60,674 bases of DNA from Alphaproteobacteria bacterium (GTDB lineage Bacteria > Pseudomonadota > Alphaproteobacteria > UBA828), in NCBI GenBank assembly GCA_011523425.1, contig WTGU01000042.1:1-60674 (forward strand), in the 5' to 3' direction. Below, piece by piece: positions 4,779-56,770 of the stretch (positions are counted from its first letter, which is position 1; each line of letters begins with the position of its first letter). A model generated the notes under the pieces. That model did no database searches. It was not told where the DNA came from and saw only the letters and a program-made list of their open reading frames with translations. The position numbers and the translations under genes were made by a program.

Positions 4779-4781
4779 GCC

Positions 4782-4887
4782 GGAGCGAGTCCGGTCCCGG
4801 CGGACTCGCGACAGGCCGCGACTGCGGCCCGCCGCTTATGCGGCGCCCTCGCGGAGGCGCCGGCTAAAGGCCGGCTGCCGTGAGCGA
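4782..4887. repeat. Dispersed multi-hairpin element, copy A (right end replaced)
   Basis: This fills the gap between the convergent amidase and cupin genes. Successive perfect stems are GCGAGTCCG/CGGACTCGC (4785-4793/4801-4809), GGCCGC/GCGGCC (4814-4829), CGCCGC/GCGGCG (4830-4845), two GGCGCC blocks (4842-4861) and GCCGGC/GCCGGC (4859-4875), then TGCCGTGAGCGA. The order matches the copies at 37683 and 44683. Compared with copy B the first stem has changed on both arms (AG/CT against TA/TA), so pairing is conserved while sequence is not. The terminal hairpin of the full element is missing here and a different terminator-like hairpin takes its place. Confidence 0.9.
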
Positions 4888-4904
4888 AAAAGTCCCCGGC
4901 GGGG
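4887..4904 (-). terminator. Rho-independent terminator of the cupin gene
   Basis: Read on the minus strand, GCCCC-GCC-GGGG is followed after two bases by five T residues, immediately after the TAG stop of the cupin gene (4905-4907). A GC stem plus a T-run is the standard intrinsic terminator layout. It abuts the right end of repeat copy A. Confidence 0.65.
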
Positions 4905-15767: not shown

Positions 15768-16727
15768 GTGGACCTTCCGGTCGTCTTTCACCCGGACTAC
15801 ACGGTCCCGCTGCCGCCCGGCCACCGCTTTCCGATCGGCAAGTTCGGGCGCATCAGGGACGTGCTGCTGGAGGACGGCGTGATCCCGCCGGAGAGCCTGG
15901 TGGAGCCCGCGCCCGCATCCCGCGCCTGGCTCACGCTCGCCCACGACGAGCCCTACGTCGACGCGGTGCTGGCGCTTGCGCTCGACCGCCGCGCCGTCCG
16001 CCGCCTCGGGCTGCCGCTGTCGGACGCGCTGGTCCGGCGCGGCCGCGCCGCCGTCGGCGGCACCGTGCTCACGGGCCGGCTCGCGCTCGAGCGCGGGCTC
16101 GCCTGCAATACCGCCGGGGGCAGCCACCATGCCTTCGCCGGTCACGGCGCCGGCTTCTGCCTCTTCAACGACGTCGCCGTCGCCATCCGCGTGTTGCGGC
16201 GCGAAGGGCTGATCGACCGCGCGCTGGTGGTCGATCTCGACGTCCACCAGGGCGACGGCACCGCCGCGATCTTCCGCGCGGAGCCGGAGACCTTCACCTT
16301 CTCGCTCCACTGCGAGGCCAACTATCCGCCGGCCAAGGAGACGGGCGATCTCGACATCGGCGTGCCCCCCGGCACCGGCGATGCGGTCTATCAGGCGGTG
16401 CTGGAGACCCACCTGCCGGGCGTCCTCGCGCGCCACCGGCCGGACATCGTGTTCTACAATGCCGGTGTCGATCCCCACGCGGAGGACAAGCTCGGCCGGC
16501 TCGCCCTCGGCGACGAGGGGCTCGCCCGGCGCGACCGCTACGTGATCGAGACCTGCCGCGTCGCCGGCGTGCCCGTGGCCTGCGTGGTGGGCGGCGGCTA
16601 TGCCGACGACCTCGATCGCCTCGCGCGCCGGCATACGAGCGTCCATCGGGCCGCCGCCGCGGTGGTGCGAGAGGCGCGAGCGGCGGCGGGCCGGGTGCGG
16701 GTGCGTGTTGCGGGAGGGAGCCGATGA
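15768..16727 (+). CDS. Histone deacetylase family (acetoin utilisation / polyamine deacetylase-like) protein
   Basis: This 319-residue Zn-dependent deacetylase of the arginase-deacetylase fold shows His120-His121 in GGSHHAF, zinc ligands Asp158 and His160 in [10 protein letters not shown], Asp235 in [13 protein letters not shown], and the GGGY segment at 275-278. The GTG start at 15768 gives [11 protein letters not shown]. Bacterial members deacetylate acetylpolyamines or other small amides rather than histones; the substrate is unknown. It ends with an ATGA overlap on the next gene, so the two are translationally coupled. Confidence 0.88.
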
Positions 16728-35101: not shown

Positions 35102-36112
35102 CTATTCGCCCCACACCTCGCGGAAGACCCGGACCCAGTTGCCGCCGAGAATCTTCTTCATCGCCTCCTCGCCGTAGCCGCGCTCCAGCAGGCGCCTGGT
35201 CAGGTTGCGCAGCGTGCGCGGCGTGGCGATGCCGTCCGGGAAGTGATGCGGCGGCGGGGGGTAGGATTCGGGCCGCCAGTCGCCGGCCGCGATGCGCCCC
35301 TCGTACATGCGCATGGACTCCTCGTCGCTGACCACCGGCGCCTGCCCCTTGTAGTAGTCGAGGCCGAGGCCGACGTGGTCGTCGCCCACGAGGCCCACCA
35401 CATGGTCGATGTGATCGACGAACTCGTCGAGAGTGGGTCTGGGCGATGCGCTGACGAAGGGCGGAAAGCCGACGATGCCGATCAGGCCGCCGGTCGCGGC
35501 CGCCGCCCTGATCTGCTCGTCGGTGATGTTGCGCGGCGAGTCCCTCACCGCCTTCGCGTTCGAGTGCGAGAAGACCACGGGGCGCGAGGACGCCTCGATC
35601 GCATCCATGGTGGTGCGATAGCCGGTGTGGCTGCAGTCGACCACGATGCGGGCCTCGTTGAGGCGCTCGATCACCTGGAGGCCGAAGGTGCTGAGCCCGG
35701 CGTCGGTCCGTTCCTCGCAGCCGTCGCCCACGCGGTTCTTGACGTTGTAGGCGAGCTGGATCATGCCGACGCCCAAGGCCTTGTAGGCGTCGATCAGGTT
35801 GAGATCGTCCTCGATCGGCTCGGTGCCCTGGAAGTGGAACACCACGCCGAGCCGGCGAGCGGCCTTGGCGGCGGCGAAGTCGGCGGCCCGCCTGACGAGG
35901 ACGAGCCTCGGGTCCCTCTCGATGGCGCGGAGCCAGTCGCCCAGCACCCGCAGCGTGGGGCCGGCGCGCTGGAACGCGCCGACGGTCGGCCCCGCCGCGG
36001 TCACGCCGCCCTCGATCCACCAGTCGATGTACTGGCGGTCCATCATGAGCGGACACACCGCGTCGATCACGATGGCCTCGTCGTGGAGTCGCTTGTCGTC
36101 GATCGTGCCCAC
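35102..36112 (-). CDS. Peptidase M19 (membrane dipeptidase) family protein lacking metal ligands
   Basis: This 336-residue protein has the renal-dipeptidase TIM barrel. Two ligand histidines are kept (VVDCSHTG and VVFSHSNAKAVRD), as are the D/R segments near the end. The N-terminal metal motif, normally D-x-H-x-D, reads DAVCP (residues 17-21), and the bridging Glu of the usual EGG motif is Gln in HFQGTEP. Loss of His, Asp and Glu should remove the first metal site, so the dipeptidase reaction is doubtful. No signal peptide is present. It is upstream of mtnK on the same strand. Confidence 0.82.
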   Translation of the reverse strand: MGTIDDKRLHDEAIVIDAVCPLMMDRQYIDWWIEGGVTAAGPTVGAFQRAGPTLRVLGDWLRAIERDPRLVLVRRAADFAAAKAARRLGVVFHFQGTEPIEDDLNLIDAYKALGVGMIQLAYNVKNRVGDGCEERTDAGLSTFGLQVIERLNEARIVVDCSHTGYRTTMDAIEASSRPVVFSHSNAKAVRDSPRNITDEQIRAAAATGGLIGIVGFPPFVSASPRPTLDEFVDHIDHVVGLVGDDHVGLGLDYYKGQAPVVSDEESMRMYEGRIAAGDWRPESYPPPPHHFPDGIATPRTLRNLTRRLLERGYGEEAMKKILGGNWVRVFREVWGE

Positions 36113-36294
36113 GCCTGGAGCCTCCCTCTCTCTCGCCCGTCGCCCCGTCGCGACCGCGCCTGCTCTGTTCCCGCCTGTTGCGAGCGCCGGGCGGCATTCT
36201 CGCCGATGAGCCGCGGCGAGGGCAGTGCCTGCTGCGCCGCGAGACCGGCCCGTGCGGGATTGACGGCCGGCCCGCGCCCGGCCATCGTCGGCGC

Positions 36295-36996
36295 GTGCCG
36301 ACCGCCCTCAGTATCGTCATCCCCACCCTCGACGCAGCCGACGTTCTCGGCGCGACGCTTGCCGCGCTCGCGCCCGGCATCGAGCGGCTCGGGGCGCAGG
36401 GCACGCCGGTCGAGGTCGTGATCGCCGACGGCGGCTCCCGCGACGGGACGGCCGACGTGGCCCGCCGTCGCGGACTGCGGCTCACGAGCGCTGCGCAGGG
36501 GCGCGGCCGCCAGCTCGCGGCCGGTGCCGAGGCGGCGTCCGGCGCGTGGCTGCTCTTCCTCCACGCCGACACGCGCCCCGCACCCGGCTGGGCCGACGAG
36601 GTGAGCGCCTTCATCGCGGCGCCCGGCAACGAGGGCCGCGCCGCCTGCTTCCGCTTCGCCCTCGACGATCGCGGCGCGGCGCCGCGCCTGCTGGAGCGGC
36701 TGGTGGCGCTGCGCTGCCGCCTCTTCTCGCTCCCCTACGGCGACCAGGGGCTGCTGATCCAGCGCGGCTTCTACGAGGCGCTGGGGGGCTTCCGCCCGTT
36801 GCCGCTCATGGAGGACGTGGACATCGCCCGCCGCATCGGCCGGCGGCGGCTCGCCTATCTCTCGACTCCGGCGGTCACCTCGGCCGTGCGCTACCGCCGC
36901 GCGGGCTATGGCGCGCGCATGCTGCGCAACCTCTGCTGCCTGACGCTCTTCTCGCTGGGGGTCAGGGCCGAGACGGTGGCCAGGCTCTACGGATGA
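36295..36996 (+). CDS. TIGR04283-type family 2 glycosyltransferase
   Basis: This 233-residue GT-A glycosyltransferase starts VPTALSIVIPTLDAA. It has the GGSRDGT nucleotide-sugar motif, FLHADTRP (DxD-like metal site), PYGDQGLLI and MEDVDIARR. That set matches the TIGR04283 family found beside TIGR04282 glycosyltransferases, which database annotation links to arsenosugar synthesis. The GTG at 36295 is preferred; a longer frame exists but its N-terminus is not protein-like. Its stop overlaps the next ATG (ATGA). The 182 bp upstream (36113-36294) show no other feature. Confidence 0.85.
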   Translation: MPTALSIVIPTLDAADVLGATLAALAPGIERLGAQGTPVEVVIADGGSRDGTADVARRRGLRLTSAAQGRGRQLAAGAEAASGAWLLFLHADTRPAPGWADEVSAFIAAPGNEGRAACFRFALDDRGAAPRLLERLVALRCRLFSLPYGDQGLLIQRGFYEALGGFRPLPLMEDVDIARRIGRRRLAYLSTPAVTSAVRYRRAGYGARMLRNLCCLTLFSLGVRAETVARLYG

Positions 36997-37685
36997 GGCC
37001 GCACGAGCGCCACCTCGCGATCTTCGCCAAGGAGCCGAGGCTAGGCCGGGCCAAGAGGCGCCTCGCCTGCGATGTCGGCCACGCCGAGGCCTGGCTCTTC
37101 TACCGCAGGCTGGTGCGCCGCGTGCTGCCGCCCATTGCTCGCGACCCGCGCTGGACCACGTGGCTCGCGACGACGCCCGACGATTGGCAGGGGCGGGAGC
37201 CCTTCTGGCCCTTCGTCCTGCCGCGCATCGGGCAGGGGCCGGGCGATGTCGGCCGGCGCATGCTGCACGTCTTCCGCAGCCTGCCGCCGGGGCCGGCGAT
37301 CATCGTCGGCAGCGACATTCCGGGGCTCGCGCCGGCCCATGTCGCGCGCGGCTTCGCAGCCCTCGGCCGCGCCGACATGGTGCTGGGGCCAGCGACCGAC
37401 GGCGGCTACTGGCTGATCGGGCTGAGCCAGCGCGCCCGCGCGATCGACCCCTTCCGGGGCGTGCGCTGGTCGAGCCCGTGGGCGCTCGCCGACACCATGC
37501 GCGGGCTGCCGGCGGGCTTCCGCCTCGCCCGGGCCGACTGCCTCGCCGACGTGGACGACGGCGAGGCCTACGACCGTTGGCGCGCCCAAGCGAGCGCACC
37601 CGCCGAGACGCACGAACGGGATAGCGCGTTCTCCCGCGTGCGCGCTCAGGCCAGCGAACCCTCCCGCTACGCGCGAACGGGATAG
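36993..37685 (+). CDS. TIGR04282/DUF2064-type glycosyltransferase
   Basis: This 230-residue protein of the DUF2064 GT-A family begins HLAIFAKEPRLGRAKRRL and has VGSDIPGLAPAHV and the LGPATDGGYWLIGL active-site segment. It is co-translated with the preceding glycosyltransferase; the pair is a common unit whose product is not biochemically settled. The C-terminal 35 residues come from an imperfect 60-bp duplication (RAQASAPAETHERDSA then RAQASEPSRYARTG) and look like a recent extension. The stop TAG is the first triplet of repeat copy B. Confidence 0.82.
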   Translation: MRPHERHLAIFAKEPRLGRAKRRLACDVGHAEAWLFYRRLVRRVLPPIARDPRWTTWLATTPDDWQGREPFWPFVLPRIGQGPGDVGRRMLHVFRSLPPGPAIIVGSDIPGLAPAHVARGFAALGRADMVLGPATDGGYWLIGLSQRARAIDPFRGVRWSSPWALADTMRGLPAGFRLARADCLADVDDGEAYDRWRAQASAPAETHERDSAFSRVRAQASEPSRYARTG

Positions 37686-37689
37686 AGCG
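37581..37689 (+). repeat. Imperfect 60-bp tandem duplication at the DUF2064 gene end
   Basis: Sequence beginning CGCGCCCAAGCGAGCG (37581) recurs 60 bases later as CGCGCTCAGGCCAGCG (37641). Both units end in CGAACGGGATAG. A one-base length difference puts the second GATAG in frame, so it supplies the stop codon while the first is read through as Asp-Ser. The duplication abuts repeat copy B. Confidence 0.7.
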
Positions 37690-37830
37690 TATCCGTCTTT
37701 GGCGGATACGCGACAGGCCGCGACTGCGGCCCGCCGCGCATGCGGCGCCCTCGCGGAGGCGCCGGCCGCAGGCCGGCTGCCGTGAGCGACAAAGAGGCTG
37801 GAGCGTTTCCGTGTAAAGCGGACACGCTCC
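37683..37830. repeat. Dispersed multi-hairpin element, copy B (full length, 148 bp)
   Basis: It lies between the convergent DUF2064 and RidA genes. Stems in order: GCGTATCCG/CGGATACGC (37687-37711), GGCCGC/GCGGCC (37716-37731), CGCCGC/GCGGCG (37732-37747), paired GGCGCC blocks (37744-37763), GCCGGC/GCCGGC (37761-37777) and a terminal 12-bp stem GGAGCGTTTCCG/CGGACACGCTCC with one mismatch (37800-37830). The left end TAGAGCGTATCCG and the right end form imperfect terminal inverted repeats. It supplies the DUF2064 stop codon. Confidence 0.92.
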
Positions 37831-37853
37831 AGCGAGATTTCCCTCCCACGCGC

Positions 37854-38246
37854 TCAGGCGAGCGCGACGCACTCGATCTCGATGTCGAACTCCATCGGCC
37901 ACGACGCCATGGCGACAAAGGTCCTGGCCGGCGGGTCGTGCGGGAAGTAGCGCCCGTAGATCTCGTTCACGATCCGGTAGTAGGCGGAATTGGTGACGAA
38001 GACGTTGCACTTCACCACGCGTTCGAGTGAGGAGCCTGCGCTTTCGAGCGTGTGCTGCATCACCTTCATCACCTGCTCTGTCTGCACGTCGATCCCGCCC
38101 TTCACCATTTGGCCCGTCTCGAGGTCGAGCGGCGGCAGGCCCGAGACGTAGAGGAAGCCGCCCGCGCGCACGCAGGGCGAGAGCGGCACGCCGATCTCGC
38201 GCAGCGCGTCCGAGAGCTTGGGTATCTCGACGATTTCCTTCTCCAC
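37854..38246 (-). CDS. RidA family protein
   Basis: This 130-residue RidA-type protein has LSPCVRAGGFLYVSGLPPLD, EQVMKVMQHTLESAG, VVKCNVFVTN and PARTFVAMASWPMEFDIEIECVA; the Arg of PARTF is the carboxylate-binding arginine of the family. The GTG at 38246 (VEKEIVEIPKL), preceded by AGAAGGA, gives the normal family length; an upstream ATG at 38285 would add 13 residues unlike the family. It lies 39 bp downstream of moaB on the same strand. Confidence 0.88.
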   Translation of the reverse strand: MEKEIVEIPKLSDALREIGVPLSPCVRAGGFLYVSGLPPLDLETGQMVKGGIDVQTEQVMKVMQHTLESAGSSLERVVKCNVFVTNSAYYRIVNEIYGRYFPHDPPARTFVAMASWPMEFDIEIECVALA

Positions 38247-38285
38247 CGTTCCTTCTCCTTCTCCCGGTCTCAGACGGCGCGCCAT

Positions 38286-38855
38286 CTATATGGCGCGCGC
38301 GTCAGGCTGCGCGGACGCGCGACGTTCGGTCTCCTGCAGGCGGGGCATCAGCTCCACCAGGTTGCACGGCCGCCAGCGATAGTCGAGCTGGTAGCGGAGG
38401 ATCTTGTCCCAGCCGTCCTTGCAGGCGCCGGGCGAGCCCGGCAGCGCAAACAGATAGGTGCCGCCGGCGACGCCGCCGGTGGTGCGGGACTGCATCGTCG
38501 ACGTGCCGATCAGCTCGTAGCTGAGCTGGCGGAAGAGCTCGCCGAAGCCCGGTATCTCCTTGTCGTAGACCTCCTGGAAGGCCTCCGGCGTCACGTCGCG
38601 GCCGGTCACCCCGGTGCCGCCGGTCGCGATCACCGCGTCGACCTCCGCATCGGCGATCCAGCGCTTGAGCGCCGCGACGATCTCGGCCCGCTCGTCGGTC
38701 ACGATGCGGCGGGCGGCGACGCGGTGGCCTGCCCCCTCGATCCGCTCCACCAGCACCCGGCCGGAGCGGTCGTCGGCCATCCCGCGGGAGTCCGAGACCG
38801 TGAGCACCGCGATGTTGACGGCGCGGAAGGGCCTCTTCTCGTCGATTCCGATCAT
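38286..38855 (-). CDS. moaB: MoaB/Mog-type molybdopterin-binding protein
   Basis: This 189-residue protein of the MoaB/MogA family adenylylates molybdopterin during molybdenum cofactor synthesis. Core motifs VLTVSDSR, TGGTGVTGRDVTPEA, PGFGELFRQLSYE and FALPGSPGACKDGW are clear. It is longer than E. coli MoaB by a short C-terminal extension. Its ATG overlaps the uracil-DNA glycosylase stop (ATGA), so the two are translationally coupled, a pairing seen in other alphaproteobacteria. No other molybdopterin gene is in the window. Confidence 0.92.
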   Translation of the reverse strand: MIGIDEKRPFRAVNIAVLTVSDSRGMADDRSGRVLVERIEGAGHRVAARRIVTDERAEIVAALKRWIADAEVDAVIATGGTGVTGRDVTPEAFQEVYDKEIPGFGELFRQLSYELIGTSTMQSRTTGGVAGGTYLFALPGSPGACKDGWDKILRYQLDYRWRPCNLVELMPRLQETERRASAQPDARAI

Positions 38856-39700
38856 CGCTCGGCGTCTCCGTTCTTCATCACCTCCTCGATGGCGAGGAGG
38901 TCGCGCCAGACCTCGCGCTTGGCCTGCGGCGAGCGCAGCAGGTAGGCGGGGTGGAAGGTCGCCGTGGCCTGGATGCTCCCCTCCATGCGCGGCGTCGAGA
39001 AGGGGAACCACTGGCCGCGCAGCCGGGTGATGCCCTCGCGCCGGCCGAGCAGGGCCTTGGCGGCGATGCCGCCGACCAGCACCAGGATGCGCGGCGCGAT
39101 CAGCTCGATCTGGCGTTCCAGGAAGGGCTGGCAGATGGCGAGCTCCTCGGCGGTGGGCGAGCGGTTGCCGGGTGGCCGCCAGGGCAGCATGTTGGTGATG
39201 TAGACCGCCGAGCGGTCGAGGCCGATGGCGGCCAGCATGCGGTCGAGCAGGCGGCCGGCGGGCCCGACGAAGGGGAGGCCCTGGCGGTCCTCCTCGGCGC
39301 CCGGCGCCTCGCCCACTATCATCAGCGCGGCCTGCGGGTTGCCGTCGCCGATCACCGTGCTGGTCGCGGTGCGCTTCAGCGCGCAGCCGTCGAAGGCGCC
39401 GACCGCCGCCACGAGCTGGTCGAGGCTGGTGCAGGCGGCGGCGATCTCGTGCGCGCTCCAGGTGGCATCGCCCGGCGGAAGCAGCGGGGCGGGCGGGGCG
39501 TCAGGCGCAGGCTCCGTCGGGGCGGGCTCTCGCGAGGCAGCCGCTTGCGCTGCAGCCTGCGCGGGCGCGGGCTCGCGGGCGACGGCCACCGCGGCTTCCG
39601 CCTCCCCGTAGCGATCGCGCGGCGCGTGGTCGATCGCCTGGTCGACGCCGGCACGCGCGTACCAGTCCAGAAGCGCCCGGATCCCTCGGTCTTCGCCCAT
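38852..39700 (-). CDS. Family 4-type uracil-DNA glycosylase
   Basis: This 282-residue base-excision repair enzyme removes uracil from DNA. The catalytic region GEAPGAEEDRQGLPFVGPAG and the second motif FHPAYLLRSP match family 4 glycosylases; the cysteines in FDGCALK and LAICQPF are candidate Fe-S ligands. The N-terminal 85 residues are Ala/Pro/Glu-rich and look disordered, a common extension in this lineage. Start ATG at 39700. It leads the transcript with moaB and the RidA gene. Confidence 0.9.
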   Translation of the reverse strand: MGEDRGIRALLDWYARAGVDQAIDHAPRDRYGEAEAAVAVAREPAPAQAAAQAAASREPAPTEPAPDAPPAPLLPPGDATWSAHEIAAACTSLDQLVAAVGAFDGCALKRTATSTVIGDGNPQAALMIVGEAPGAEEDRQGLPFVGPAGRLLDRMLAAIGLDRSAVYITNMLPWRPPGNRSPTAEELAICQPFLERQIELIAPRILVLVGGIAAKALLGRREGITRLRGQWFPFSTPRMEGSIQATATFHPAYLLRSPQAKREVWRDLLAIEEVMKNGDAER

Positions 39701-39743
39701 CGCCGGCAGGATATCAGAGCCGCGCCCCGCGCTCATCCGCCGT

Positions 39744-39814
39744 GCCGGCAGGCACGCGGTATCGAACGACGGCCGGCAGGCGCGCGGTATCGGATGACGG
39801 CCGGCAGGCGGCGG
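39744..39814 (+). repeat. 28-bp tandem repeat, about 2.5 units
   Basis: GCCGGCAGGCACGCGGTATC (39744) opens a 28-bp unit that is repeated at 39772 with three changes and partially at 39800. It lies 44 bp upstream of the uracil-DNA glycosylase start, within the 158-bp intergenic region where that gene's promoter should be. Each unit begins with the palindrome GCCGGC. Confidence 0.85.
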
Positions 39815-39858
39815 AACAGGAGACCCATCCTCCGCGCGGCCGGAGGCCGCGGCGCCGC

Positions 39859-40125
39859 CTACGGCTTCTTCCCGCCGCTGCGCGGCAGGTCGATGACCCG
39901 GCCGCCGTCCCTGCGCGGATCGAAGTCGTATCCCTTGCGCACCTCGACGTTGCGCAGGATGACCTCGAGCGCGGTCGCATCGAAGGGGTCCACGTCGCCC
40001 GGCTCGCGATACTTCGCCTTCAGGCTGTGCAGCATCTCGCGCTCGTTGGGCATGAGCTCCTCCTCGACCGCTTCCGCCGCCTCGATCAGGCGCTGAAGCG
40101 CGACGAAGGCCACCAGCTCGACCAT
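39859..40125 (-). CDS. Small conserved-looking hypothetical protein (88 aa)
   Basis: I do not recognise this family. The N-terminal 30 residues are an acidic amphipathic helix (VELVAFVALQRLIEAAEAVEE), the middle is charged, and the end is basic (LPRSGGKKP). There is no signal peptide. The ATG at 40125 has AAGGAAG upstream; a longer form to 40185 would start in non-protein-like sequence. It is divergent from the MetX-like gene. Confidence 0.6.
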   Translation of the reverse strand: MVELVAFVALQRLIEAAEAVEEELMPNEREMLHSLKAKYREPGDVDPFDATALEVILRNVEVRKGYDFDPRRDGGRVIDLPRSGGKKP

Positions 40126-40270
40126 CGCGGTCTTCCTTCTCTCTGCGCGCTGCCCCCTTCCAGGCGATATCGGGCCGTTTGTCAAACCGGTGCCGCACGG
40201 GCGATTGCAACGGCAGCGCCTGCGGCTCAGGATGGGAGCAACCGGCCATGCGGCAGGCGGAGAGGGAAGA

Positions 40271-41281
40271 ATGAGCGACTACGAGACTTTCGATGCGGGC
40301 GACGTGGTGCTGCAGAAGGGCGCAACGCTCCGGGACGCGAAGCTCGCCTACAAGACCTACGGCACGCTCAACGCCAAGAAGGACAACGTCATCATCCAGC
40401 CGACCTGGTACTCCGGCCACCACACCGACGTGGAATGGACCATCGGCGAGGATCAGGCCCTCGACCCCAGGGAGTACTTCATCATCGTGCCCAACATGCT
40501 GGGCAACGGCCTCTCGTCGTCGCCCAGCAACACGCCGGCGCCCTACGACAAGGCGCGCTTCCCCCAGGTGACGGCCTACGACAACGTGCGCCTGCAGCAC
40601 CGCCTCGTCACCGAGGTCTTCGGGATCGAGCGGATCAAGCTCGTGACCGGCTGGTCCATGGGCGCGCTGCAGACCTTCCACTGGGGCTGCCTCTACCCCG
40701 ACATGGTGGAGCGCATCGTGCCGACCTGCGGCTCGGCCAAGTGCTCGCGCCACAACTTCGTGTTCCTGGAGGGCGTCAAGGCGGCGCTGACGGCCGACGA
40801 CGCCTGGAAGGGCGGCTGGTACGACGCGCCGCCCACCAAGGGCCTGCGGGCGATGGCGCGGGTCTATGCCGGCTGGGGCTTCTCGCAGACCTTCTACCGG
40901 GTCGAGGAGGACCTGGCGCTGGGCTTCTCCTCGCTCGAGGATTTCCTGGTCGCCTTCTGGGAGGGGTTCTTCATCCACAAGGACGCGAACAACCTGCTCG
41001 CCATGCTGTGGACCTGGCAGAACGGCGACATCGGCGACAACGAGGTCTATGGCGGCGACTTCAAGAAGGCGCTCGCTGGCATCAAGGCCAAAGCCTTCGT
41101 GATGCCGGGGCGCACCGACCTCTACTTCCCGCCGGAGGACAGCGAGATCGAGGTCGCCAACATGCCGAACGCCGAGCTGCGCGTCTTCGAGTCCTACTAC
41201 GGCCACTTCGCCTCGAGCATGCTGAACCCGGCGGACGTGGCCTTCCAGAACGACGCGATCAGGGAGATCCTGGCGAGCTGA
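40271..41281 (+). CDS. MetX-like alpha/beta-fold hydrolase/acyltransferase
   Basis: This 336-residue protein resembles homoserine O-acetyltransferase. The nucleophile elbow is GWSMGALQ, Asp in MPGRTDLYF and His in YYGHFAS complete the triad, and the N-terminal KLAYKTYGTLN is characteristic. It is shorter than classical MetX (about 370-390), and the elbow GWSMGA differs from the GGSMGG usually seen, so it may be a hydrolase of the same fold rather than a methionine enzyme. MetY is present 11 kb downstream. Start ATG at 40271. Confidence 0.82.
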   Translation: MSDYETFDAGDVVLQKGATLRDAKLAYKTYGTLNAKKDNVIIQPTWYSGHHTDVEWTIGEDQALDPREYFIIVPNMLGNGLSSSPSNTPAPYDKARFPQVTAYDNVRLQHRLVTEVFGIERIKLVTGWSMGALQTFHWGCLYPDMVERIVPTCGSAKCSRHNFVFLEGVKAALTADDAWKGGWYDAPPTKGLRAMARVYAGWGFSQTFYRVEEDLALGFSSLEDFLVAFWEGFFIHKDANNLLAMLWTWQNGDIGDNEVYGGDFKKALAGIKAKAFVMPGRTDLYFPPEDSEIEVANMPNAELRVFESYYGHFASSMLNPADVAFQNDAIREILAS

Positions 41282-41307
41282 GGCGCGCGCCTGCCCTTCG
41301 CGACGCC

Positions 41308-41323
41308 ATGGCCGGGCATGACG
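41308..41323 (+). repeat. Half unit of the palindromic intergenic repeat
   Basis: CATGGCCGGGCATGAC shares the arm ATGGCCGGG and the CATGAC edge with the paired repeat at 33158-33246, but the central part is deleted. It lies in the 85-bp gap between the convergent MetX-like and SDR genes. Confidence 0.6.
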
Positions 41324-41366
41324 GCGGGAGGCTGGCTCCGCTCGTGCGCGGCGTGGAGCGGGAGCG

Positions 41367-42125
41367 CTACCCCCGCCCGATGAAGGGCATCTTGGTCGCC
41401 ATCACCGTCATGAACTGGACGTTCGCATCCAGCGGCAGGCGCGCCATGTAGACCACGGCCTGGGCGACGCTCTCCACGTTCATGGTCGCCTCGGAGGCGA
41501 TGGAGCCGTCCGCCTGCGGCACCCCCTGGCTCATGCGCTCGGTCATCTCGGTGGCCGCGTTGCCGATGTCGATCTGGCCGCAGGCGATGTCGTACTTGCG
41601 CCCGTCCAGCGAGGTGGATCGCGTGAGCCCGGTCATGGCGTGCTTGGTCGAGGTGTAGGGCACCGAGTTGGGGCGCGGCACGTGGGCGGAGATCGAGCCG
41701 TTGTTGATGATGCGCCCGCCCATGGGCTCCTGCGCCTTCATCATGCGGAAGGCCTCCTGGGTGCAGACGAAGGCGCCGGTGAGGTTGGTATCGACCACCT
41801 GCTGCCACTTGTCGAGGCGGAGGTCCTCCAGCGGCACGGCGGGCGCGCTGATGCCGGCGTTGTTGAAGAGAAGGTCGAGCCGCCCGAACGCCTTCCCGGT
41901 CGCCGCGAAGAGCGCCGCCACCTGGTCCGGCTTGCCCACGTCGCAGGGCACCGCGATCGCCTCGTTGGCGCCGACGCCGGCCTCGGCGATGGCGGCTTCC
42001 AGCGTCTCCCGCCGCCGTCCGGCGAAGACCACAGCCCAGCCGTCGGCAAGCAGCGCCAGCGCCGCCGCCTTGCCGATCCCCTGGCCCGCGCCGGTGACCA
42101 GCGCCACCTTGCGCTCTGCGTTCAT
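41367..42125 (-). CDS. SDR family oxidoreductase
   Basis: This 252-residue classical short-chain dehydrogenase has the cofactor loop [21 protein letters not shown], the active-site Ser in NNGSISAH, and Tyr and Lys in [10 protein letters not shown]. The Arg-rich FAGRRRE segment after beta-2 suggests NADPH preference. The substrate is unknown. It converges on the MetX-like gene and lies downstream of the acyl-CoA ligase on the same strand, 117 bp away. Confidence 0.92.
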
Positions 42126-42242
42126 CAGCTCTGCTCCTCCGACCCTGCCTCGGCACCGGACGCCTGCGCCGGTTCGACCGTCGGCCCCACGGGCGCCGCA
42201 TATAGCATGGGGCGCAGGCGCGGTTAACGCCGCGACGGCGCT

Positions 42243-43856
42243 TCAGCTCGCGCGCTTGCGCCGCCTGAGATCGTGGCAGCCCGTGACCTCTCGCGGGTCC
42301 GTGTCGTCGGGGAAGAGGCTCACCTTCCGCACCTTCTGCGTGCTGGTCACCGGCAGGGTGTCGAGGAAGAGCAGGTAGCCCGGCGCCTTGTAGTAGGCGA
42401 GGCGCGCGAGGCAGAGGTCCTGCAGCGCTTCCGCCGCCTCCCGGTCCCGAGCGGCGCCCACCGCCGGCACGATGCAGGCCATCACCTCCTCCTGCCTGAG
42501 CTCGTCCGGCACCGCGATGACCGCCGCCTGGGCCACGCGCCCGTCGGCCTGGAGCACCGCCTCGACCTCCGCCGCGGCGATGTTCTCGCCGCTGCGGCGG
42601 ATGATGTTCTTCTTGCGGTCGACGAAGCAGAGCATGCCGTCGGCGGCCTGGGTCACGACGTCGCCGGTGTGGAACCAGCCGCCCCGCCAGGCCTCCGCGG
42701 TCGCATCCGCATCCTTCAGGTAGCCCGAGAAGAGGCCGCGCGCAGGATCGTCGCCGCTCATCCGCAGCGTGAGCTCGCCGGCGACATCGGGCGGCACCGC
42801 GCGCTCCGCGTCGTCCACCACGCGCACCTCGCAGCCGGAAAGCGGGCGGCCGAAGGCGCGGGTCTTGATCTGCCGGGGCTCGGCGCTCGCCCAGGTCGGC
42901 ATCGCCACCTCGGTCATGCCCCAGCCCTCGATCAGCGGGAAGCCGAAGCGCGCCTCGAACGCCTCGTGATGCTTGGGGTCGATGCCGGCGCCGGCGCCGA
43001 ACCTCACTTCATGGGCGCGGTCCTCCGGCCCCGGCGGCAGGCCGAGCAGGAGCGGCGGCATGATGCCGAGATAGTGGATGACGGTGGCGCGCGTCGCCGC
43101 CACGTCGGCCCACCAGCTGCGGGGGTGGAAGCGGTCGGCCATGACGATGCAGCCGGCCGCGCTCAGCATCGCCATGCTGCCGATGGCGAGCGCGTTGGCG
43201 TGGTGCAGTGGCAGCGGGTTGAGCAGCCGCTCGCAGCCGTCGGCCAGCGTCATCAGCCCGCCCGCCTCGCGATACCAGCGCGCCGCATTGAGGAAGTAGC
43301 GGTTGGCGAGGATGCAGCCCTTGGGCCGCCCCGTGGTGCCGGAGGTGTAGAGCAGCGCCGCCTCGGTATCGATACCGGGCGCAACGGTGCTGCCGGCGCC
43401 GCCACGCGGAGCCGGAAGACGCGCGGGCGAGGCGGAAACGTCGACCACCGGCAGCGCCCGGGCCGCGCCCCTGACCGCGGCCTCGAGATCGGCCAGCCGC
43501 TCCGGCACCGCGACCGCGAGCACCGCCTCGGAATGGTCGAGGAGATAGACCGTCTCCTCCTGCCGATACGCGGGGTTGATGGGCACGATGCCGCAGCCCA
43601 GCGCGTTGAGCGCCCACCAGTGCAGGTGGAAGTCGGGCCGGTTCTCCAGCAGCAGCGCCACGCGGTGGCCGGGACCGTAGCCCGCCTCGCGGTAGCGGGC
43701 GCGCAGCGCCGCCACCCGGTCCGCCGCCTCCCGGTAGCTGATCTCCACGCCCTCGGGATGGTAGGGCCGGCCCGCCATGGGGGGCGCGCAGAGGGAGCCG
43801 CCCTCCGGCGCCCGCCGCGCCGCAGCCTCGAACAGCCCGAACACCGTTTCCGTCAT
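42243..43856 (-). CDS. AMP-forming acyl-CoA ligase
   Basis: This 537-residue ANL-superfamily enzyme activates a carboxylic acid to its acyl-CoA through an acyl-adenylate. The P-loop YTSGTTGRPKGC, the GWGMTE motif, the FHTGDV motif and the catalytic KKNIIRRSGENIAAAE segment are visible. It resembles the crotonobetaine/carnitine-CoA ligase group or medium-chain acyl ligases; the substrate cannot be fixed. Start at ATG 43856 has GGAG upstream, against a longer frame from 43913. Confidence 0.9.
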   Translation of the reverse strand: MTETVFGLFEAAARRAPEGGSLCAPPMAGRPYHPEGVEISYREAADRVAALRARYREAGYGPGHRVALLLENRPDFHLHWWALNALGCGIVPINPAYRQEETVYLLDHSEAVLAVAVPERLADLEAAVRGAARALPVVDVSASPARLPAPRGGAGSTVAPGIDTEAALLYTSGTTGRPKGCILANRYFLNAARWYREAGGLMTLADGCERLLNPLPLHHANALAIGSMAMLSAAGCIVMADRFHPRSWWADVAATRATVIHYLGIMPPLLLGLPPGPEDRAHEVRFGAGAGIDPKHHEAFEARFGFPLIEGWGMTEVAMPTWASAEPRQIKTRAFGRPLSGCEVRVVDDAERAVPPDVAGELTLRMSGDDPARGLFSGYLKDADATAEAWRGGWFHTGDVVTQAADGMLCFVDRKKNIIRRSGENIAAAEVEAVLQADGRVAQAAVIAVPDELRQEEVMACIVPAVGAARDREAAEALQDLCLARLAYYKAPGYLLFLDTLPVTSTQKVRKVSLFPDDTDPREVTGCHDLRRRKRAS

Positions 43857-43930
43857 CGCCGCTCCGCTTGCCGCTCCGTCGGTGGGCGCATACGGTGACG
43901 CCCGTTCCGCCATGCCATGAGAGTCAAGGG

Positions 43931-44179
43931 ATGGGCAGGTTCTACGAACCCGATCTCGGCCGCAATCCGGACGATCCCTTCGCCCGCGACGCGGACGGCA
44001 GGCTCATCCGCCGCGCCTTCTGGCTCGACATGAGCGACCGCTCGCTGGTGCTGGCGATGACCCAGGGCGTGGGCGCCGCGCTCGCCAACGATCACAAGCG
44101 CGCGCATCTCGCCGATATCGGCCGCGCCCACCTGATCGACCAGGTGTGCATCCAGGAGATCCTGCCGCCCGAGAGATAG
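43931..44179 (+). CDS. Small hypothetical protein (82 aa)
   Basis: I do not recognise this family. It begins MGRFYEPDLGRNPDDPF and has a hydrophobic centre (SLVLAMTQGVGAALAND), then a charged end. It has no cysteine pairs and no signal peptide. It is divergent from the acyl-CoA ligase and precedes the GNAT gene by 76 bp on the same strand. The ribosome site is weak (AGGG touching the ATG), so the start could lie upstream at 43868. Confidence 0.5.
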   Translation: MGRFYEPDLGRNPDDPFARDADGRLIRRAFWLDMSDRSLVLAMTQGVGAALANDHKRAHLADIGRAHLIDQVCIQEILPPER

Positions 44180-44255
44180 GCGGCGACCCAGAAGACGTGA
44201 TCCTTCCTCCATCGGATCAGTCCGCCGTCACGTTCGGGAACGAGGGGGACCGGCA

Positions 44256-44684
44256 ATGCCGAATGCAGGGACATCGTCCGACGGCTCGAGGATCGTCCGG
44301 GCCATGACCCCCGACGATCTAGACGCCGCCTGTCGGATCCTGGTCGACCAGGAACTCTGCGACGCCGAAGGGCTGCCGCAGCGGCTCTCGGCAACGATGG
44401 AGATGGCCAATGCCGACTACCTCGTCGCCGAGGAGGACGGCGTGATCGTCGGCGTTACGCTATCGGTCTTCGACGGATTCACCAGCTTTGCCAGCTACGT
44501 GGCCGTAGCTCCGGGCGCGGAGCGACGGCAGATCGGAGGTCAGATGATCGGCGAGCTGATCCGCCGCACGCAGGCGCGCGACGGCAAGAACATCGTCGTG
44601 GCCTCCTGGCTTTCCGCCGCCGGTTTCTACCGCAGCATGGAGTTCCGTATGCCCGGCGCCGTGTTCCTGGTCCGCGACGTTTAG
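44256..44684 (+). CDS. GNAT family N-acetyltransferase
   Basis: This 142-residue acetyl-CoA-dependent acyltransferase has the pyrophosphate loop RRQIGGQM and the preceding beta-4 SYVAVAPG, with the C-terminal AAGFYRSMEFR strand typical of the fold. The substrate is unknown. Codon use looks slightly less GC-biased than its neighbours. Its TAG stop (44682-44684) straddles the left end of repeat copy C. Confidence 0.82.
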   Translation: MPNAGTSSDGSRIVRAMTPDDLDAACRILVDQELCDAEGLPQRLSATMEMANADYLVAEEDGVIVGVTLSVFDGFTSFASYVAVAPGAERRQIGGQMIGELIRRTQARDGKNIVVASWLSAAGFYRSMEFRMPGAVFLVRDV

Positions 44685-44830
44685 AGCGTATCCGTCTTTG
44701 ACGGATACGCGACAGGCCGCGACCGCGGCCCGCCGCTTATGCGGCGCGCCCGCGCAGGCGCCGGCCGTAGGCCGGCTGCCGTGAGCGACAAAAAGGCTAG
44801 AGCGTGTCCGCGTAAAGCGGACACGCTCTA
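44683..44830. repeat. Dispersed multi-hairpin element, copy C (full length, 148 bp, best preserved)
   Basis: It fills the gap between the convergent GNAT and EamA genes. The left stem is an 11-bp perfect GCGTATCCGTC/GACGGATACGC (44686-44710); the right stem is a 15-bp perfect CTAGAGCGTGTCCGC/GCGGACACGCTCTAG with loop GTAAA (44797-44831). The four middle stems match copies A and B. Both flanking stop codons (TAG 44682-44684 and, on the other strand, TAG 44828-44830) overlap the element. Its two ends are 12/13 identical as an inverted pair. Confidence 0.93.
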
Positions 44831-44831
44831 G
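44790..44831 (-). terminator. Intrinsic terminator formed by the right hairpin of copy C
   Basis: On the minus strand the EamA stop codon lies inside the first arm of the 15-bp hairpin, which is followed by CC and five T residues. This is a strong rho-independent terminator for the EamA gene. The T-run lies in the conserved AAAGAGGCT/AAAAAGGCT stretch of the element. Confidence 0.7.
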
Positions 44832-45745
44832 GGCTCCGCCTGCGTCGCCGGCTGGCGTCGAGCCGCGTGGATCAGGAGCGCCACGCCCGCCAGCATCAGC
44901 ACCGCCGCGCCCCAGGCGTAGGCGCTGTGGCTCTCGCTGAAGAAGAGGATGCCCCAGCCGAGCCCGGCCACCACCACCACGTAGTTGAACTGCGAGAAGA
45001 ACACCGGGCCGGCCGCGCGCACGATGATGAGGAAGGTGACGTACATGGTGATGGTGACTCCGGCGGCGCCCAGGATCGCGAGGTCCGCGCCTGTGTCCGG
45101 CCCTGGCACCACGTAGGTCTCGCCCAGCCCGATCATCACCGGCGCCAGCATGATCGTCGCCGCCGCGCAGATGCCGCTCGCGAACGTGATGACCGGCGTC
45201 TCCGGCGGGTCGATCAGGGCCGCGAGGTTGTTGGTGAGCGCGAACGAGGCGGGTGCCAGCAGGGCGAGCAGGAACCAGACGACCATGCCGGGCTCGGGCA
45301 GCGAGAAGGCCGGTATCACCATCAGCAGGATGCCGCCGATGCCGAAGAGGACGCCGAGCAGGCTGAGCGCGCGCACCCGCTCCAGCCGGAGAGCGAGCGC
45401 GATCATGTAGGTGATGGGGGGCGAGAGGATCACCACCATCGAGAGGATGCCGGTCGGCAGCTTCGGCGCGAGCCAGGTCATCAGCGTGACAGGCGCCGCG
45501 ATGCCGAACAGCCCGATCACGAAATAGGCCTTGATGTGGCGGGCCTCGAGCCGGGGCAGCGCGCGGCGCCAGGCGGCAACGATCAGCAGCAGGACGGCGG
45601 CGCCAAGCGTCTGCCAGAAGGTGAAGGCGACCGGCGGCGTGCCTGCGTCCACCGCGATCTTGTTCATGGTGAAGATCAGCGGATAGACCGCTCCGACCGT
45701 GAGCAGCAGGAAGATCGGGAGGGCGAGCGGCCCGCGGCGCCGCAT
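44828..45745 (-). CDS. EamA/DMT superfamily transporter
   Basis: This 305-residue inner-membrane protein has about ten hydrophobic segments in two EamA repeats (residues about 10-145 and 155-295). It is probably a metabolite or amino-acid exporter; the substrate is unknown. Its stop codon is contributed by repeat copy C. It lies 21 bp downstream of the PhyH dioxygenase on the same strand and may be on the same mRNA. Confidence 0.88.
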   Translation of the reverse strand: MRRRGPLALPIFLLLTVGAVYPLIFTMNKIAVDAGTPPVAFTFWQTLGAAVLLLIVAAWRRALPRLEARHIKAYFVIGLFGIAAPVTLMTWLAPKLPTGILSMVVILSPPITYMIALALRLERVRALSLLGVLFGIGGILLMVIPAFSLPEPGMVVWFLLALLAPASFALTNNLAALIDPPETPVITFASGICAAATIMLAPVMIGLGETYVVPGPDTGADLAILGAAGVTITMYVTFLIIVRAAGPVFFSQFNYVVVVAGLGWGILFFSESHSAYAWGAAVLMLAGVALLIHAARRQPATQAEP

Positions 45746-45766
45746 GGGGCCTGAGGGCCGGTTCTT

Positions 45767-46570
45767 CTAGCGCGCGCCGGCGCCGGCGGTGCGCTCCGGT
45801 TCCGCCAGGAGGCAGTCGTCGTCAAGCGGCTCCACGGGCGTGAAGTCGCGGTGCGCGATGTACTCCGGCCGCTGGTAGCGGCGGATCGCGTTGTCCACCC
45901 GGTTGGCCGAGAAGTAGACCGCGCGCCGGCCCCAGGGCGACATGTTGGGCGCAGATCCGTGCACCAGGTTGCAGTGGAAGAAGAGCGCCGCCCCCGGCTC
46001 GCCCTTCGGCGCGACGATCCCGCCGTCGGCCACCAGCGTCTCGATGGTCTCGTTGTCGATGGTCCAGAGCGGATAGCTCGTGGTGCAGAGATCGTGGCCG
46101 GCCTCGATCCGCCCGCGCCGGTGCGAGCGTGGGATGAACATGAGCGGGCCGTTGAACTCGTTCACCGGGTCGAGGTAGACGGCGAGGTTCATGGCGTGCG
46201 GCGCCGGCATGTCGTCGTCCCGCGACCAGGTGCCGTAGTCCTGGTGCCACTGCCAGACGTCGCCGTCGAAGGCGGCCTTGGCGTTCACCTTGAACTGGTG
46301 GATGTAGACCGGGCCGCCGAGGACCTGCATCGCCGGCTCCACCAGGCGCGGATGGCGCGAAAGGCGCCAGTAGATGTCGCTGTAGGTGTGAACGCCGAAG
46401 GCGGTGCGCACCGCGCCACTCAGCTCGCGCACGATCTCCGGCCCGGTGCGCGCGAAGATGGCGGGCAGCCCTGCGCGCAACGCCGCCGTCTCGTCCGCCG
46501 AGAAGAGCTCCGGCAGGAAGAGGAACCCCTCGCGGTCCAACGTCTCGCACTGATCGGCGGAAAGCTTCAT
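45767..46570 (-). CDS. PhyH family dioxygenase (ectoine-hydroxylase-like)
   Basis: This 267-residue Fe(II)/2-oxoglutarate oxygenase has the triad His109 and Asp111 in WHQDYGTW and His204 in LVHGSAPN; Arg215/Arg216 should bind 2-oxoglutarate. The region around WHQDYGTW...DDDMPAPHAM resembles ectoine hydroxylase (WHSDFETWH), but the proton-side residues differ and no ectoine genes are near, so the substrate is open. It follows soxG by 92 bp on the same strand, suggesting it acts on an N-methylated or quaternary amine, which is inference. Confidence 0.85.
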   Translation of the reverse strand: MKLSADQCETLDREGFLFLPELFSADETAALRAGLPAIFARTGPEIVRELSGAVRTAFGVHTYSDIYWRLSRHPRLVEPAMQVLGGPVYIHQFKVNAKAAFDGDVWQWHQDYGTWSRDDDMPAPHAMNLAVYLDPVNEFNGPLMFIPRSHRRGRIEAGHDLCTTSYPLWTIDNETIETLVADGGIVAPKGEPGAALFFHCNLVHGSAPNMSPWGRRAVYFSANRVDNAIRRYQRPEYIAHRDFTPVEPLDDDCLLAEPERTAGAGAR

Positions 46571-46662
46571 CGGCCGTTCCGTCTTGCGTCTGCCTGCCAA
46601 ATTGCGCCGCGCGTCCGCGCCCGTCAAGACGGTAGCCTGCGCGGCAGTGCCCGGCGCACCGC

Positions 46663-47256
46663 TCAGGCCGGGCGGTACTCCGCCATGGCATCCAGCAGCC
46701 AGCTCGCGAGGTAGTGGGCAAACGAATTCCGCACCGTTAACTCGTAGACAGGTTCCGCGCCGATCTGGTGCAGGATGACCTGCGCTCGGGCCAGCGCCGT
46801 CTGCGCGCAAGCGCCGGGCGCGAAGGCACGCGGGTGGAGATCGAGCCGGCAGCCCTTCATCAGCACGGTGCGGGCGTTGGCGCCGGCGAGCGTGAGCGTC
46901 GTGTACATGGCGCCGACGTCCGTGACCGCGTGGTGGGTGCCGGCAAGGGCGGCCTCGAGCGCGCCTGCGCGCGCAGCGCCGTCGTCTGCGGGGCCGCACA
47001 CCAGCCACTCGTTCGGGCCGAGCCAGAGGATGCTCCAGCCGTCGGCAGCGGCAGTGGCGGTATTCGGGGCGAGCGGCAGGGTGCCGCCGAGCGCGGCGCC
47101 TGCAGCCTCGAGCGCGCCCCCGTCCTCCGGGTCGAGCCGGAGGTTGAGCCGCGCCCGGGCCGGGCACGCGGCGAGCGTGACGCCGTCTGCGCCCGTGGCG
47201 GCCAGCGCATCGGCGAGGGACGCGAGCGGGCTCTGCGGCACCGGCTGCTCAGCCAT
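46663..47256 (-). CDS. soxG: Sarcosine oxidase gamma subunit
   Basis: This 197-residue subunit belongs to the heterotetrameric sarcosine oxidase and shares fold with the GcvT N-terminal domain. Sequences ILWLGPNEWLVCGP, TDVGAMYTTLTLAG, KGCRLDLHPRAF and the C-terminal SFAHYLASWLLDAM are typical. Its start overlaps the soxA stop by eight bases, showing tight coupling. It is the last gene of soxBDAG. Confidence 0.93.
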   Translation of the reverse strand: MAEQPVPQSPLASLADALAATGADGVTLAACPARARLNLRLDPEDGGALEAAGAALGGTLPLAPNTATAAADGWSILWLGPNEWLVCGPADDGAARAGALEAALAGTHHAVTDVGAMYTTLTLAGANARTVLMKGCRLDLHPRAFAPGACAQTALARAQVILHQIGAEPVYELTVRNSFAHYLASWLLDAMAEYRPA

Positions 47257-55794: not shown

Positions 55795-56724
55795 ATGACC
55801 GACGCCTGGACCGTTCCCGAGCCCGACGACGTGCACGAGGTGCGCACGGCGGACGGCTACCCCATCGCGCTGCGCCGATACGGAAAGCCGGATGGCCCCA
55901 GGCTCGTCATGAGCCACGGGAACGGCTTCGCGATCGACGCCTACTGGCCCTACTGGTCCCGCTTCATCGAGGAATTCGACGTCTTCGTGCACGACATCCG
56001 CAGTCATGGCCGCAATCCCGTCGGCGACCTGGACGTGCACAGTATCCCCATGATCGCGGAGGACTTCACCTGCGTCTCGCGCCACATCGACCGGCGCTTC
56101 GGCGCGAGATCCAAGGTGGGCGTGTTCCATTCGCTCTCGGCGCTGGCGGTGCTGCACGCGCCCATCGTCCACGACTATGCCGCCCTGGTGCTGTTCGACC
56201 CGCCGATCCTGTTGCCGGGCAGGACCACGGGCGATCTGGAGAAGGTCGGGTCCACGATGGGGAGGGCGACGCGCAAGCGGCGGGAGCGCTTCGAGACGCC
56301 GGCGGCGTACGCGGCGTTTCTCTCGACCAGGGACGCGTTCGCCGGCCTGGACGCGGGCGGGCTCGACCTCCTCGCGCGCGCCACGCTCCGGCCCGTCGGC
56401 ACCAGCGCCGGCTACAGGCTGAGCTGTCCGCCCGAGCACGAGGCCCGGATGTGGGATTCCCTCTATCCCTTCGCGCGGATGGTGGACTACGGCGCGATCC
56501 CCTGTCCGATCAAGGTGATCGGCTCCGATCCCACCATGTGCAACTCGTTCCTTCCGAGCACCGAAGTACCTGAGCTGCTGCGTCTGGACTACGACTTCGT
56601 TCCCGAAACGACGCACCTGCTGCAATTGGAGAACCCGGAGGCGTGCGCCGCCTTCACCCTCGACTACCTCGCCAGGCGAGGCCGCGGCCGTCGCGCGGAA
56701 TCGCGGGACGGCCGGCTGCCGTGA
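55795..56724 (+). CDS. Alpha/beta hydrolase with a C-terminus donated by a repeat
   Basis: This 309-residue alpha/beta-fold hydrolase has an oxyanion HGNGFAID strand, the elbow GVFHSLSA (Ser at FHSLS), and a C-terminal His in ETTHLLQLENP. The fold is clear; the substrate is unknown. The last residues (RDGRLP) and the TGA stop are encoded by repeat copy D, so the original C-terminus was altered by its arrival. It is divergent from the amidohydrolase gene, 134 bp away. Confidence 0.82.
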   Translation: MTDAWTVPEPDDVHEVRTADGYPIALRRYGKPDGPRLVMSHGNGFAIDAYWPYWSRFIEEFDVFVHDIRSHGRNPVGDLDVHSIPMIAEDFTCVSRHIDRRFGARSKVGVFHSLSALAVLHAPIVHDYAALVLFDPPILLPGRTTGDLEKVGSTMGRATRKRRERFETPAAYAAFLSTRDAFAGLDAGGLDLLARATLRPVGTSAGYRLSCPPEHEARMWDSLYPFARMVDYGAIPCPIKVIGSDPTMCNSFLPSTEVPELLRLDYDFVPETTHLLQLENPEACAAFTLDYLARRGRGRRAESRDGRLP

Positions 56725-56768
56725 GCGACAAAGAGGCTGGAGCGTTTCCGCGTATAGCGGCCACTCCC
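56708..56768. repeat. Dispersed multi-hairpin element, copy D (3' half, degraded)
   Basis: GGCCGGCTGCCGTGAGCGAC and the following AAAGAGGCTGGAGCGTTTCCG are identical to copy B. The terminal stem is degraded to GGAGCGTTTCCGC / GCGGCCACTCC. The left half of the element is missing. The hydrolase TGA at 56722-56724 is inside it. Unlike copies A-C it lies between tandem genes. Confidence 0.88.
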
Positions 56769-56770
56769 TC

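Follow-up and report, generated by a model that had tools for sequence, protein, structure and literature searches.

A MITE family with a stop-codon landing rule and a conserved fold, probably mobilised by IS630, in Alphaproteobacteria

Overview

A short multi-hairpin element lying between two convergent genes of an alphaproteobacterium belongs to a new family of non-autonomous transposable elements (MITEs), probably mobilised by IS630, whose insertion follows a stop-codon landing rule and whose fold is unusually well conserved. The element is short (145 bp, or ~177 bp in a longer form, in either case too small for a transposase), carries terminal inverted repeats, duplicates its target site as seen by comparison with an empty site, and is present in many copies. 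An earlier reading made from the sequence alone (the sequence-only reading) had named a MITE among its interpretations, and the empty site with its TA duplication, the copy number and terminal repeats like those of congener IS630 elements bear this out. We consider it likely that an IS630-type (Tc1/mariner) transposase moves the element. Taken together, the target sequence and the element's two terminal bases explain how insertion at a stop codon can be harmless on both strands, which is a concrete, testable safe-landing rule. In what follows, the window is the whole stretch of DNA analysed, 60,674 nucleotides of contig WTGU01000042.1.

Copies in the window

Copy C is a 145-bp mobile unit at 44684-44828 on the plus strand (G44684 to C44828; GAGCGTATCCG...CGGACACGCTC), with ends given by an empty orthologous site and a covariance-model score of 176 bits. 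The unit runs GAGCG...CGCTC and is framed by TA repeats, the two halves of the target duplication, at 44682-44683 and 44829-44830. The left TA together with G44684 forms the TAG stop (44682-44684) of the plus-strand gene at 44304-44684, presumably a GNAT acetyltransferase; the right TA together with C44828 reads CTA, the TAG stop on the minus strand (44830-44828) of the gene at 44828-45745, which we take to be an EamA transporter.

Five hairpin domains can be resolved in the predicted fold, rather than the six stems originally described. Hairpin 1, the left terminal one (44686-44710, plus strand; helix 1 GCGTATCCGTC/GACGGATACGC), contains covarying pairs, and hairpin 2 (GGCCGC-GACC-GCGGCC, 44715-44730, plus) shows almost no variation among copies. 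Hairpin 3 (CGCCGC-TTAT-GCGGCG, 44731-44746, plus), placed by the predicted fold and a MAFFT alignment, is almost invariant within the genus and has compensatory C-G to G-C changes in two other genera, G009 and G021. Hairpin 4 (44751-44787, plus) includes the conserved strand CGTGAGCG and is where the ~177-bp form has 29-31 bp extra. The right terminal palindrome, supported by both fold and covariation, spans 44797-44831 and reads CTAGAGCGTGTCCGC-TTTAC-GCGGACACGCTCTAG on the minus strand, continuing past the palindrome into CCTTTTTG.

The window contains three other copies, all on the plus strand. Copy B (37685-37829, 145 bp; CTGGAGCG...CGCTCCAG) has a left TA at 37683-37684 that forms the TAG stop of the gene at 36993-37685; its right TA is mutated to CA (37830-37831), with a matching inner change to TG. 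Copy A (4781-4892) is a truncated copy at a convergent junction, with its left terminus mutated to CGGAGCG and its right hairpin gone; element positions 21-111 align in it with window positions 4801-4891. Copy D (56710-56769), flanked by tandem genes, is the right part of a long-form copy. Gene calls came from a finder based on codon usage and trained on the window, which places eight convergent junctions there, three of them occupied by A, B and C. The earlier description of these copies thus holds in most respects: all four were found again, A does lack its right end, D does match a right part, and A, B and C sit at three of eight convergent junctions. Copy C had been given as 148 bp; the element is real, but the true unit is 145 bp and the span proposed for it begins one base late. 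Stop codons had also been placed inside the element; the relevant ones are those at the termini of copy C.

Target site and element ends

The insertion can be read directly from an orthologous junction in a congener (G001; locus L148) and the same locus in a named metagenome-assembled genome (MAG; L069). Both have the same two convergent genes, with proteins about 79% and 91% identical, and no element: the empty junction reads GACGTT-TA-GGTCTCCGC, and the window reads GACGTT-TA-[145]-TA-GGGCTCCGC. The flanks after TA correspond as well, GGTCTCC at the empty site versus GGGCTCC beyond copy C. The empty site, TTAG, combines the TAG stop of one gene with the TAA stop of the other. When the flanks of 135 copies were joined and then aligned to other genomes, further empty orthologous sites were obtained in which a single TA is kept as part of a stop codon (for example L036/L191, L168/L198, L180/L236 and L204/L233). 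Among 40 cross-species locus comparisons, 28 sites were empty and 12 shared. Junction B has no element in L072 and L075, but the joint there falls in short degenerate repeats without a clean alignment. In L072, at ~16430-16570, several degenerate repeats of GCGCGCTCAGGnGAGCG lie in tandem where the genes end.

Both TAs are intact in 39 full copies, and in these the target can be read from the outer bases. It is YTAR in 32 of them, compared with 20.7% of harmless TA sites (p ~4e-16). The inner bases are nearly fixed: G follows the left TA in 38 copies, and C precedes the right TA in 35. Because the outer flanking bases vary while those on the element side are G and C, only TA is duplicated. A 4-bp YTAR duplication of the IS5-like kind was also considered and is ruled out, the left and right four-mers being identical in only 11 of the 39. 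Among full copies without a gene stop at either end, C or T precedes the left TA in 27 of 27; YTAR is thus a target preference of the insertion machinery and not the outcome of survival at stops alone. The imperfect terminal inverted repeats that had been claimed are present, with 11 of the first 14 positions matching between GAGCGTATCCG and GAGCGTGTCCG.

Stop codons and gene orientation

Read on either strand, YTAR gives a stop codon, TAA or TAG. The element has G as its first base and C as its last, so that insertion creates TA+G at one end and C+TA at the other, and each strand regains a TAG. In 59 of 86 full copies a gene terminates exactly at a terminal TAG (left gene only in 24, right gene only in 27, both in 8, neither in 27). 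Among all called stops in the window and the congener loci we count 427 TAG, 105 TAA and 662 TGA, so that TAG is about four times as frequent as TAA; because TAG is such a common stop, the pool of CTAG and TTAG targets is enlarged.

The orientation of the neighbouring genes was tallied for the 128 copies with two called neighbours, none of which falls within a gene. Convergent neighbours flank 80 copies, tandem neighbours 41 (21 ++ and 20 --) and divergent neighbours 7. Harmless YTAR sites (n = 664) were used for comparison, of which 151 (23%) are convergent and 148 divergent. The convergent excess (80/128 versus 151/664, p ~8e-22) and the divergent deficit (7/128, p ~3e-7) are both large, with p values that ignore kinship among copies that are only partly independent. 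The convergent bias proposed from the three window copies is therefore real. It also persists when only stop sites are compared (41 of 57 copies versus 65 of 211 sites), and in G009 and G021 the neighbours are convergent for 12 of the 13 copies with both called, most having a gene end at or beside a terminus.

Mobile repeats between convergent genes are usually accounted for by the removal of harmful insertions elsewhere. In this case, only part of the bias requires a function, because YTAR is itself a stop on both strands. The stop codons follow from target choice; the remaining bias follows from purging of tandem and divergent insertions, or else from a benefit at convergent ends. The 145-bp unit enters the TA inside YTAR and the TA is duplicated, TAG stops arise on both strands after insertion, and the flanking genes retain their reading frames and ends. 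Because insertion leaves stops intact, copies are tolerated at gene ends, and at convergent ends above all. Tandem and divergent insertions would be lost because promoters, ribosome-binding sites or operon partners become separated.

Distribution among genomes

Genome-wide copy numbers were taken from searches. The element occupies at least 48 places, copy C included, in its own 3.6-Mb genome (a metagenome assembly of 3.62 Mb in 159 contigs, 99% complete). A DNA similarity search gave 40 scored matches there, and ~44 distinct full-length matches, including the ~177-bp form, are listed for a covariance model derived from 68 full-length copies. The 109 covariance-model matches in total are not a copy count, because they include reverse-strand shadows and fragments. 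Identity among the full copies of this genome is 77-97%.

The search of the host genome and its relatives that had been suggested thus yields many dispersed copies, and the element is present in seven of seven congeners. It also occurs in genus G009 of the same family and in G021 of another family of the order; the remaining genomes of the order gave zero or single weak matches. The named relatives are Rhodospirillales or Alphaproteobacteria MAGs and, going by isolate names, may live in association with sponges or corals. Close pairs of element cores were seen in G009 and G021 (L271, L270, L274, L276 and L287), which suggests repeated insertion at one place or tandem growth. A lone 33-bp palindrome in L168 (5983-6018; TAAAGCGAGTCCG...CGGACGCGCTCTA) has YTAR flanking bases and resembles the right end of the element alone.

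Fold and covariation

The predicted fold of copy C is more stable than that of shuffled sequences on both strands (z = -9.7 for plus, -9.1 for minus). In the alignment of the 68 full copies, 95.3% of cells pair. Changes on both arms of a stem, which the sequence-only reading had noticed between window copies, extend to 20 pairs and 140 cells, whereas shuffles give 39 cells and slid controls no more than 32. None of 500 shuffles reaches the observed covariation on any of five measures in alignments A1 and A3, and slid controls are far lower. The covariation signal therefore survives in the larger alignment behind the covariance model.

The signal also extends beyond the genus. In a MAFFT alignment including G009 and G021, hairpins 1, 3, 4 and 5 have altered stem sequences that still pair (for example CGCCGC/GCGGCG, CGCCGG/CCGGCG and CGGCGC/GCGCCG), and the TTAT loop and GTGAGC are mostly unchanged. 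Because compensatory changes preserve the five-hairpin fold over genus and family distance, pairing is maintained, in agreement with the conserved-structure reading proposed earlier. Plain MITE decay predicts no covariation across families; upkeep of the fold thus needs more than mobility of the DNA ends. Rfam gave no gathering-level match in the window and, with E<=1 as the limit, none that overlapped the element in the four loci searched.

Candidate mobiliser

Genes for an IS630 transposase (PF13358) were found in six of the seven congeners. Where both ends can be placed, the congener IS630 elements are ~1,050 bp long, located in CTAG, and begin TA-GAGC; ends of the form TA-GAGC[A/G]... in CTAG were seen in L244, L246, L247, L252 and L258. 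Their end sequences include GAGCGCGATCCTATC and GAGCACGATCCGATC (L246, L247), GAGCGTGATCC (L258) and GAGCACTATCCGATC (L244), and the genus consensus of the element starts GAGCGCGTCCGTC. The two kinds of terminal repeat have TA-GAGC[A/G] and TCC..TC in common, in an alignment that needs one-base gaps (GAGCGCGATCCTATC versus GAGCGCG-TCCG-TC). Because target and TA duplication match those of congener IS630 and the ends resemble its ends, the element is most likely an IS630-mobilised MITE, and an IS630 transposase with congener-like ends would do the moving by binding TA-GAGC... ends.

PF13358 was not found in the element's own genome, G000 (99% complete, with assembly gaps possible), nor in G004, G009 and G021, which all carry the element. 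Because G000 has no cognate transposase, filing the element as IS630-mobilised means that it works like such elements rather than that membership is proven; this absence and the gapped match of the terminal repeats both count against an IS630 mobiliser. Formally, another TA-duplicating transposase could also be the mover.

In L244 (1255-2458; G002:C73), an IS630-family element abuts a copy of our element with one TA in common, a nested use of the CTAG created at the element's end. In two of three congener IS630 elements checked (L246 ~2025, L244 ~2453), the stop of the flanking minus-strand gene appears to be the terminal TAG from IS630, and the stop-codon habit may thus be shared by the likely mobiliser.

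Alternative explanations

Two other kinds of mobiliser can be weighed against IS630. An IS5/IS427-type transposase would also use CTAG-like targets, and a congener IS427-type (DUF4096) insertion sequence (L160 1405-2260, and L159) does sit in CTAG. Its ends, GGCCGCGTACTCATAAA and GGGCGTGGACTCATTAG, are however unlike GAGCGYGTCCG, which rejects this insertion sequence as the source, and no DUF4096 element is present in the element's own genome; we regard a mover of this type as very unlikely. A REP or REPIN element that depends on a RAYT (Y1 tyrosine) transposase, as the sequence-only reading had also entertained, would likewise be intergenic, palindromic and multi-copy. The gene it calls for (Y1_Tnp, PF01797) is absent from the element's own genome in a search that gives matches in E. 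coli and Caulobacter, and a 145-bp unit with a TA duplication and terminal inverted repeats is foreign to REP. That identity is rejected, with hardly any probability left to it.

The IS630-mobilised MITE accounts for movement; the conserved fold and the placement invite other explanations. The host might keep the element as a 3'-end RNA module whose hairpins either act as transcription terminators or shield the 3' ends of mRNAs, thereby conserving both the fold and the convergent placement. Compensatory pairing within the genus, in G009 and in G021 of another family is what such a module would give, as is convergent placement above what YTAR sites offer, at stop sites alone too and in nearly all G009 and G021 copies. 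Of the pairs in the terminal hairpins, 15 show more G.T than A.C and one shows the reverse, and C>T and G>A changes occur there in nearly the same number (36 and 39); among these related sequences, the G.T excess points to pairing in plus-strand RNA. A good T-tract (T-score >= 1.5) follows the right hairpin in six of seven G009 copies, on the minus strand only. Against this, the same score is reached in 0 of 30 full copies in the element's own genome, and the left hairpin lacks a T-tract in every copy of every lineage. Intrinsic terminator function is thus weak in this genome and never bidirectional: the bidirectional terminator proposed earlier is excluded, and of the right hairpin with its T-run the T-tract stands, but as a weak one (copy C is the sole element copy flagged as terminator-like in a simple, looser scan of 36000-47000). 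Tandem copies also show no orientation preference (21 versus 20), and the element is dispensable at a given junction, since 28 of 40 loci are empty in congeners. Convergent pairs are moreover common (188 of 1,177 gene pairs), and tens of copies per genome reach only a small minority of them. On balance, we doubt that the host keeps the element in this way. Matched stem changes could instead come from DNA-level correction of imperfect palindromes, by template switching at replication, with no selection on the fold. The strongest within-genus covariation does lie in the two palindromic ends and includes host-DNA target bases (pairs 120-122 with 155-157), but a strand-symmetric DNA process is not expected to favour G.T over A.C, and internal hairpins 3 and 4 covary too over longer distances; this account, too, appears unlikely to us. 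A tentative further reading, to which we give no greater weight, combines mobility with function in a mobile 3'-end cassette: a unit that targets the YTAR double stop, has TAG at both ends and folds into five hairpins under RNA-level selection in two families. If it holds, one insertion would equip each of the two convergent genes with a new stop and, at its 3' end, a new structure. A fold covarying across two families makes this a good case for asking whether MITE RNA structure serves the element's own spread or host mRNA 3' ends.

Comparison with known elements

A non-exhaustive literature search found no paper on stop-codon-targeting MITEs or on MITEs of sponge-symbiont Alphaproteobacteria. 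RUP of Streptococcus pneumoniae (107 bp, IS630-Spn1; PMC3049150, PMC2229807) sets the established precedent: a MITE that has been attributed to an IS630 element and is over-represented between convergent genes. It is likewise small, non-coding and high-copy, with IS630-type terminal repeats and a TA target. RUP differs in being AT-rich, in sequence and host, and in a proposed preference for sites in or near IS elements, whereas our element has YTAR targets at stop codons, stop-restoring G...C ends, a row of GC-rich hairpins and cross-genus covariation. IS630 itself inserts into TA within CTAG (PMC2170065, citing Tenzen and Ohtsubo 1991), and the element resembles it in its TA duplication in CTAG and in the TA-GAGC ends of congener IS630. 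Unlike IS630, it has no transposase gene, and the likeness is confined to the ends, with small gaps.

Other repeats share single features. The Correia/NEMIS elements of Neisseria are MITE-sized with terminal inverted repeats and 5'-TA-3' termini (listed in a table of PMC2229807), but differ in repeat length and host. SPRITE of pneumococcus (PMC3049150) has strong convergent-gene enrichment and a terminator-like fold; unlike our element, it has AAAA/TTTT terminal repeats, no clear duplication and that single fold. MITEPsy1 of Pseudomonas syringae targets CTAG or YTAA (PMC3189936), with a 4-bp duplication and IS5-like terminal repeats, whereas our element duplicates TA only. CIR of Caulobacter and Brucella is also an alphaproteobacterial intergenic repeat with TA termini (PMC2229807), but exposes a GANTC motif, which occurs in only 13 of the 68 element copies.
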